DNA of 46,007 bases, from NCBI RefSeq assembly GCF_030655615.1, contig NZ_JAURVJ010000125.1, positions 1 through 46,007 of the forward strand, in the 5' to 3' direction. Numbering within the stretch: the stretch's first letter is position 1; each line of letters begins with the position of its first letter. The stretch comes from Nocardioides sp. (lineage in GTDB: Bacteria; Actinomycetota; Actinomycetes; Propionibacteriales; Nocardioidaceae). The position numbers were made by a program, and so were the translations under genes. This document shows positions 44,634-46,007 of this stretch, piece by piece. Below the pieces are notes generated by a model, which saw only the letters and a list, made by a program, of their open reading frames with translations, ran no database searches and was not told the DNA's origin.

Positions 44634-45086
44634 GTGGTGACGGCGTACGACGAGAGGCTTGCCGTCCCGCTGCGGTGGTGGGTCCAGGGCTCGATGCTCG
44701 TCGCGTCGCTCTGGCTGGCCCTCGTCGTCGCGGTCCCCGGGTTGCTCGCCTGGGCGGTCACCGCCGTCGCCGTGGCCCTGCTGACGCTGCTGCTGCGCAC
44801 CTACGGCGGCGCCCGGATCGTCGTCGACGACGGGGTGCTGCGGGTGGGGCGGGCCCGGATCGAGGGCCACCACCTCGGCCGCGCCGTGCCCCTCGACGCC
44901 GACCAGGCCCGCCGCACCGCCGGCGTCGAGGCCGACGCCCGGGCCTTCCTGCTGCTGCGGCCCTACCTCTCCCGCGCCGTCAAGGTCGAGGTCACCGACC
45001 CGGCCGACCCGGCGCCGTACTGGCTGATCAGCACCCGCCACCCCGACCAGCTCGCCCACGCGGTCGACGCCCTCTCCAGAGACTGA
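44634..45086 (+). CDS. DUF3093 membrane protein
   Basis: This is a DUF3093 family protein of 150 residues. Two hydrophobic segments (about 15-55: [18 protein letters not shown] and [18 protein letters not shown]) form a hairpin in the membrane. A cytosolic beta-rich domain follows ([52 protein letters not shown]). The divergent pairing with dut is the same as Rv2697c-Rv2698. The GTG start is used because it just precedes the conserved [12 protein letters not shown] block. The function is unknown. Confidence 0.9.
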
Positions 45087-45124
45087 CCGGTCCTTGGCGC
45101 ACCCCGGCGCTATAGGGTCGGGCC

Positions 45125-45436
45125 ATGGCCAAGAAAGACGCCTCAGGCGCCCCCGACAGCTCCAAGATCTGGTCGGTGTTCTCGCTCGTGTCGGCGCTGG
45201 GTGCCGCGGCCCTGGCCAAGAAGGGGCTCAACGCCACCTGGAAGACCGCCACGCGCAAGAAGCCGCCCGAGAACCCCGCCGACCCCGACATCGAGCTGCG
45301 CGAGGCGGTCGCGTGGGCCGTCTTCAGCGGCGCCTTCGTCGGCCTGGCCCGGATGCTCGCCCAGCGCCGGGCCGCATCCTACTACGCGCGCTCCACCGGT
45401 CGGCTGCCTCCTGGGCTGCACAAGGACGGGCAGTAG
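45125..45436 (+). CDS. DUF4235 membrane protein
   Basis: This is a small DUF4235 protein of 103 residues with two hydrophobic segments (about 15-33, SVFSLVSALGAAALAKKGL, and about 63-80, AVAWAVFSGAFVGLARML) separated by a basic, Pro-rich loop (TRKKPPENPADPD). TAGGGT ends exactly six bases before the ATG, so it has its own leaderless promoter 38 bases behind the DUF3093 gene. The function is unknown. It is the last gene in the window. Confidence 0.85.
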   Translation: MAKKDASGAPDSSKIWSVFSLVSALGAAALAKKGLNATWKTATRKKPPENPADPDIELREAVAWAVFSGAFVGLARMLAQRRAASYYARSTGRLPPGLHKDGQ

Positions 45437-45486
45437 AGGGTCGTACGTCGGGCTGGGTCCTTGTCAGCCTGAGGTCTTTCGGGGTC

Positions 45487-45647
45487 GGGCTGTCCGCGCG
45501 CTTAGCATCCCGGGTCTCCCTGTCAAGGACGCCTACGGCGCCGCTGCGCGGTCGCTGCGCGATCCTTGACAGCGAGCCTCTCCCGGGATGCTTGAGGGCG
45601 CAGACAAGGGCGGGCTCCGCCGCGCCCTCGTCCGGCGCGGACAGCCC
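45487..45647 (+). repeat. Structured nested-stem element, copy 1
   Basis: Outer stem: GGGCTGTCCGCGC (45487-45499) with its complement (45635-45647). Middle stem: AGCATCCCGGG (45504-45514) with CCCGGGATGCT (45582-45592). Core 45522-45570: GTCAAGGA closes with TCCTTGAC around three abutting 11-nt hairpins, CGCC-TAC-GGCG, CCGC-TGC-GCGG and TCGC-TGC-GCGA. A side hairpin (45604-45612 with 45623-45631, one mismatch) lies between the middle and outer 3' arms. It covers most of the first part of the 571-base gene-free end of the window. Function unknown. Confidence 0.9.
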
Positions 45648-45826
45648 TCATCTGCACCACTGGTCGCGCTGACCGGACGTTTCTCCCGGTTCTCCTATGA
45701 AACTTCGGCCCAGAAGCGGGAGCTTCGTCGCAGAACTTCACCTTGCGGGCTCCCCGACCCGGGCCGGCGGTGTGTCAGCCTCCGAACCGGCACCTCGGAT
45801 CGCCCAGAACGGTGGCTCACGCACCG

Positions 45827-46005
45827 CCGGGTCGGGTGGCCGCGCAGGCGACGGCGTGCCGCGCGCGCGAGGCCACGCCGTTGCGCGCCGAGGAGCAGAC
45901 CGCGAGAGGCTCGGGGTCAAGGATCGCGCAGCGACCGCGAAGCGGCGCCGAAGGCGTCCTTGACGCCGAGACGCGGTCTGCTACGCGCGCGGCCACCCGA
46001 CCCGG
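45827..46005 (-). repeat. Structured nested-stem element, copy 2 (inverted)
   Basis: This copy has the same plan in the opposite orientation. Outer stem: 19 bp, 45827-45845 with 45987-46005. Middle stem: AGCAGACCGCG (45894-45904) with CGCGGTCTGCT (45972-45982). Core 45916-45964 equals copy 1's core in reverse complement except for two loop bases. Side hairpin: ACGGCGTG (45851-45858) with CACGCCGT (45874-45881). Linker lengths equal those of copy 1 (4, 7 and 11 nt). Between the copies (45648-45826) I see only a small GAAGC-GGGA-GCTTC hairpin (45713-45726) and no gene. Confidence 0.9.
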
Positions 46006-46007
46006 AC

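Follow-up and report, generated by a model that had tools for sequence, protein, structure and literature searches.

The window considered here is the whole 46,007-nt stretch of the Nocardioides sp. contig NZ_JAURVJ010000125.1, at the right end of which lies a repeat unit of about 0.52 kb, counted from outer stem to outer stem. This unit comprises two structured ends, A and B, placed in inverted orientation around a gene-less spacer. Its probable left terminus stands 7 nt past the stop codon (45434-45436) of a DUF4235 gene (Pfam), and the outer terminus of end B falls past the end of the contig. The pair is interpreted, with moderate confidence, as the two structured ends, inverted relative to each other, of a single small mobile repeat that has no gene, is non-autonomous and has a DUF222-HNH protein as its likely mobiliser. 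The unit is organised as follows.

45444-45451, plus strand: probable left terminus TACGTCGG, placed by comparing printed units with the window sequence
45473-45480, plus strand: GGTCTTTC motif, outside the outer stem
45487-45647, plus strand: structured end A, also repeated in the host genome
45487-45499/45635-45647, plus strand: outer stem of end A
45504-45514/45582-45592, plus strand: middle stem of end A
45522-45570, plus strand: core of end A, three abutting hairpins enclosed by an 8-bp GTCAAGGA/TCCTTGAC stem, with TNC loops on the plus strand
about 45594-45629, plus strand: side hairpin of end A
45648-45826, no strand: gene-less spacer, repeated together with both ends
45757-45784 and 45810-45837: arms of an imperfect 28-nt inverted repeat, mostly within the spacer
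45827-46005, minus strand: structured end B, inverted
45827-45845/45987-46005, minus strand: outer stem of end B
45894-45904/45972-45982, minus strand: middle stem of end B
45916-45964, minus strand: core of end B, with TNC loops on the minus strand and GNA on the plus strand

In many other copies, an inverted GAATGACC-type partner of the GGTCTTTC motif is found outside end B. Extra copies of the segment 45750-45828 occur beside other units. None of six open reading frames (ORFs) across the unit matches Pfam, and none of four matches PHROG; tblastn found no DUF222 in the unit, and no DUF222-HNH gene lies between its ends.

Fold, loop rule and covariation of the cores

The core pattern matches the whole window twice, at 45522-45570 and 45916-45964, against an expectation of 0.00 (100 shuffles), which is where the original prediction had placed two 49-nt cores. 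Both fold in the way it described, three abutting hairpins being enclosed by an 8-bp stem, each hairpin with a 4-bp stem and a 3-nt loop, and the folding z-scores are -3.5 and -3.9 for the two cores and -4.7 for each of the segments 45487-45600 and 45840-45989. With both cores in one orientation, only two bases distinguish them, each at the centre of a loop, as had been noticed, and the perfect pairing claimed for the outer stems is seen as 100% complementarity over 13 and 19 bp. The arms had also been called wholly different and yet paired. The compensated pairing is confirmed; the difference was overstated, as ends A and B can be aligned in inverted orientation over 138 nt at 78% (235 nt between the arms) and the 11-bp middle stems, AGCATCCCGGG and AGCAGACCGCG, differ at three positions, every one of them compensated in the 3' arm.

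A wider sample of 91 distinct places, a subset of the genome matches, was selected by the two exact arms (90 in Nocardioides and one, L097, in another genus); the loop letters and the closing pair played no part in this choice. Strict parsing into three perfect abutting hairpins succeeds at 62 places, and one imperfect pair is present at 7. In the 62 perfect cores, the closing pair is C-G in 186 of 186 hairpins and 185 of the 186 show a GNA or GNNA loop on one strand (GAA 110, GCA 53, GGA 8, GTA 6, GATA 5, GTAA 2, GACA 1, AAA 1), while the hairpin stems exist in 6, 2 and 5 versions at positions one, two and three. Outside the core, the first position is unpaired at 76 of 90 places and positions 2-5 are Watson-Crick at 88, 76, 87 and 82 of them. 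Stems compensated in this manner across copies and genomes bear out the earlier proposal of selection on a folded strand.

A published rule for extra-stable folding (PMC4686876) gives mini-hairpin DNAs a loop of the form GNA or GNNA together with two or more G-C pairs. Because the loops obey this DNA rule, and because their orientation is fixed by the element ends and not by transcription, folded DNA is favoured over RNA as the probable active form, which narrows towards DNA the "DNA or RNA" strand of the original prediction.

Copies, the DUF222-HNH gene and an occupied site

The host genome (G000), an assembly of 235 contigs in which breaks are frequent in these repeats, contains 27 exact cores at spacings of 30-36, or 34 at spacings of 27-39, and none of the reversed control pattern. 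More are found in relatives with their pairing kept. Further copies with compensated stems, on which the idea of a structured family had been staked, thus exist. Two flank types, A and B, are present in the host, and the 15 units printed measure 451-611 nt from outer stem to outer stem, L010 excluded. The TACGTCGG terminus stands at the A side in three of them (L001, L014, L025), several have CCGACGTA at the B side, and L001 and L014 show the two termini together. By eye, GTAG, the tag found next to REP palindromes, precedes the middle stem on its 5' side in B-type and G009 ends, CTAG occurs in many A ends, and upstream/downstream (U/D) ends have no GTAG. A repeated unit with inverted ends is consistent with the mobile or structural unit that had been suspected.

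In other Nocardioides, the cores adjoin a DUF222-HNH gene or flank it on both sides, and the window copy is read as a non-autonomous derivative because of this arrangement, in the relation that REPINs have to RAYTs. In G039 (3 contigs, 27 exact cores of which 26 were located), 22 of the 26 lie at most 700 nt from a Pfam DUF222 match, against a random mean of 0.34 and a maximum of 4 in 2000 draws; the remaining four comprise three on the far side of the IS110 splitting the gene and one at a distance of 1.8 kb. Conversely, an exact core is found within 700 nt of 21 of the 34 DUF222 matches. The same adjacency occurs in G001, G009, G015 and G052 and, by tblastn, in G240 and G260; the stretches read of G000, G043, G051 and G057, with many of their cores at contig ends, did not show it. 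At 7 of 40 loci tested, the gene stands between upstream and downstream inverted repeats (132-187 nt, 72-88%), and of 50 DUF222-adjacent ends 49 have the TNC strand reading inward. At U2-type loci, similarity ends at the DUF222-HNH stop codon in most of the 13 printed. In a tree of 62 DUF222 proteins, 41 of them with a core, 6 changes suffice to explain the core label, compared with 17.8 after shuffling (none of 500 shuffles as low), and the core-bearing proteins fall in three separate lineages. An alignment covers 32 of the 33 listed DUF222 ends (L136 omitted); hairpins 2 and 3 misalign in it. No solved structure matched the DUF222 part by sequence.

At L104, L105 and L107 of G039, the same IS110-family gene (100% by tblastn) interrupts the DUF222-HNH gene. 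In the left flanks of L108-L120, many G039 elements are bordered by palindromes of the GGTCGAG...TCGAGACC type.

At one insertion site, the element is present in G039 and G052 and absent in G015 and G011 (two related species), where about 120 nt with a hairpin of their own lie between the same two genes. The best account of the family is a REPIN/MITE-like one with structured DNA ends, the fuller relatives of which carry DUF222-HNH. Adjacency, orientation and clustering in the tree make this protein the likely, though unproven, mobiliser, which would act on gene-less copies in trans. Whether as a single strand or by cruciform extrusion, the DNA of each end may adopt a stem that bears mini-hairpins with GNA loops at a four-way junction. 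A protein, for which DUF222-HNH would be the leading candidate in Nocardioides, might then recognise the folded invariant GTCAAGGA/TCCTTGAC stem at both ends and cut or pair them, and the hairpin sequences would be free to vary as long as folding is kept. The junction-binding recombinase or nuclease suggested in the original prediction is a possibility, and DUF222-HNH is the nuclease that stands beside the ends in relatives.

The family is patchily distributed. Core matches were obtained in 11 of the 96 genomes searched, host included, some single matches looking like chance. The bare pattern occurs in 13 of 246 genomes of Actinomycetes, 4 of which were judged by eye to share the plan (G000, G240, G260, G127), and in 7 of 190 genomes of Alphaproteobacteria, where only the centre genome G099 shares it. 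Among the matches listed, 6 of at least 238 collection matches parse strictly into three hairpins (Nocardioides L255 and L298; elsewhere L206, L245, L249 and L332), the shuffle controls giving 27/462,000 for non-parsing and 102/300,000 for parsing interiors.

Cores in other phyla

Cores with the same arms around two or three hairpins also occur in Albimonas, Bradyrhizobium, Rhodobacteraceae, a Terriglobia bin and others. Albimonas pacifica has 129 matches (control 1), and the 17 copies read follow one common plan. Over 20 Albimonas copies, 98.2% of cells are paired, 15 pairs are changed on both sides, and the covariation score is 0.175 against 0.060 when shuffled and at most 0.046 when slid, for a structure taken from one of the Albimonas sequences themselves. 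Some Albimonas cores begin with the same 24 nt as that of window end B, which suggests that the two are linked by shared descent or transfer. Bradyrhizobium gives 18 and 7 matches (control 0), its cores being placed either in the vicinity of IS110 genes or within ISNCY ORFs at their 3' end.

As these alphaproteobacterial cores occur without DUF222 in the stretches read, the core does not depend on that gene. Being wider than DUF222, it would either be used by several enzymes or be read by a host factor. A more far-reaching and still tentative interpretation, which we consider possible rather than probable, is that of a cross-phylum mobile DNA module, in which GNA hairpins at a multiway junction, closed by an 8-bp stem that hardly varies, serve as the recognition end of unrelated mobile elements (three DUF222-HNH lineages, IS110, ISNCY) and of gene-less repeats. 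If so, DUF222-HNH would represent a new class of mobilising nuclease acting on folded DNA ends. The DUF222-HNH (13E12) family gains a concrete candidate DNA substrate, and the ends would be natural four-way junctions built on the DNA mini-hairpin rule. The presence of the GTCAAGGA stem across phyla raises the question of which protein reads it. At L243 and L250, a core stands directly ahead of the start of a betA-like gene (label by eye).

Weighing the interpretation and known repeat families

Several observations weigh against a mobile repeat driven by DUF222-HNH. A target-site duplication was not established: at the site with empty counterparts none can be read, since the empty and filled intergenic sequences fail to align (by eye), and the TACGTCGG/CCGACGTA termini are present in a few copies. 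In the host, none of the 27 cores is near any of the 7 DUF222 matches, so that no autonomous partner is seen there; in G039, 13 of the 34 DUF222 matches have no exact core within 700 nt. No long inverted repeat surrounds the DUF222 gene at 33 of the 40 loci tested, and the U2 subfamily carries the core at its upstream end only. The tree carries long-branch warnings. As for the fold, strict parsing fails at 22 of the 91 places, which are mostly longer, imperfect or two-hairpin versions (by eye), and L092 and L097, the latter from the other genus, look like chance matches (by eye). The variant TCCTGGAC, which leaves one stem position unpaired, is carried by 14 of the 37 upstream ends and by 1 of the 13 downstream ends, and GTAAAGGA by one of these ends. 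The core of L004 (121-169) is inverted within A-type flanks, as a junction flip relative to other A copies. The printed L010 unit is a pattern mis-match, and the single GNA-inward end, L136, is a side mis-assignment by the script that was kept in the count.

Alphaproteobacterial copies, moreover, lie beside IS110 or ISNCY genes or beside no mobile gene, and Nocardioides DUF222 queries match none of the alphaproteobacterial stretches read (tblastn; whole genomes there were not searched). The tblastn queries are stop-to-stop reads, and that of L135 extends into its core; the short "DUF222" matches over cores in L498, L500 and L501 were rejected as artefacts of it. The DUF222 match of L486 is by tblastn only, Pfam giving HNH alone.

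The repeats might instead be REP-like host elements acting in RNA, as 3'-end mRNA stabilisers or terminators spread by duplication, with DUF222 linked by hitch-hiking. The start of the window copy 7 nt past a stop codon would suit such a role, as would the 129 Albimonas copies with the common plan of the 17 read, and the cores between betB-like and betA-like genes (labels by eye) in Mesobaculum (L206, 5815-5866) and Roseibaca (L231, 6034-6082). This explanation is nevertheless unlikely, as the loops fit the DNA GNA/GNNA rule, among them GATA and GACA, two loops that are not GNRA, genes are flanked by inverted pairs, and a loop strand set by the element ends would give opposite RNA orientations upstream and downstream of one gene.

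REPs serve as targets for some IS110 elements, and the palindromes could likewise be passive insertion targets of IS110, ISNCY and DUF222 elements. Indeed, the core lies about 316 nt past an IS110-like gene at three Bradyrhizobium places (L201 = L474, L473, L292) and about 310 nt past one in Pseudonocardia nigra (L262), with NCBIfam confirming the IS110 identity at L201 and L262; in addition, four type X cores (L475, L476, L482, L483) stand in the 3' end of ISNCY-like ORFs (NCBIfam for L475). However, the Bradyrhizobium core is inside a repeated unit that continues on both sides, single Nocardioides DUF222 elements carry inverted cores at both ends, and inverted cores occur at a site that lacks them when empty, so passive targeting is improbable as well. 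A guide or scaffold RNA for the HNH nuclease (HEARO/omega RNA-like), or an IS110 bridge RNA, is more doubtful still: the HNH part weakly matches IscB (20 bits vs a cut-off of 175) and the structured ends adjoin the gene, but many copies are gene-less, cores stand in inverted orientation both upstream and downstream of it, and a known RNA family was rejected, as Rfam at gathering score found only group II introns (L201 and L213) among 17 loci and, for the window stretch 44800-46007 at E up to 5, a single match far under its cut-off.

The preferred reading, a mobile repeat with structured DNA ends, places the family close to several known systems. REPIN/REP-RAYT elements likewise form inverted pairs of folding repeats, here the inverted A-B units, with scattered gene-less copies and similar sequences by a proposed mobiliser gene; REPs are 20-40 bp palindromes, whereas the present ends, about 160-180 nt long, combine a multiway junction with an invariant 8-bp stem (PMC3116915; PMC3733652). 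The neighbouring gene also differs, being DUF222-HNH. The Y1 transposase Y1_Tnp (PF01797) was not found in 7 of the 8 genomes searched, including the host, G039, G052 and Albimonas, and was found in G097; the RAYT partner suggested in the original prediction was rejected on this basis. CGTC-tagged REPs are similarly abundant in Alphaproteobacteria with no dedicated transposase known, but are described as short hairpins with 8-9 bp stems, a palindrome type to which the longer ends seen here do not conform (PMC3733652). The main text of that source includes "cruciform" and lacks "junction", "four-way", "gtcaagg" and "nocardi". The mycobacterial REP13E12/DUF222-HNH repeats, a named repetitive category, share the protein domains; compared by description only, they differ in that structured ends are not mentioned in the part of the description available (PMC10589994).

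The family resembles miniature inverted-repeat transposable elements (MITEs) in being short, gene-less and multicopy with inverted ends, and differs from them in that no cognate transposase or target-site duplication is shown. The inverted terminal repeats of parvoviruses such as adeno-associated virus (AAV) also consist of a stem closing abutting short hairpins with 3-nt loops. This likeness is one of working plan and no relation is claimed, the AAV repeats belonging to a linear viral genome served by an HUH Rep protein. No name for the repeat family was found in Rfam or in the literature searched on DUF222/13E12, REPs and palindromes, and the core arm sequences searched as text gave no repeat paper by title among the matches listed. 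Nor was any literature found that links Nocardioides inverted repeats, HNH endonuclease and mobility, that joins REPs, Alphaproteobacteria and IS110, or that joins DUF222 with 13E12 by those names.

Two further actinobacterial loci display other arrangements. In G240, three two-hairpin cores occur in tandem about 255 nt apart (L492, 1884-2430). In G127, which belongs to another actinobacterial family, a single core (L494, 2593-2641) is located near ThiF-like and JAB-like genes, in a neighbourhood that is possibly a defence island (by eye).
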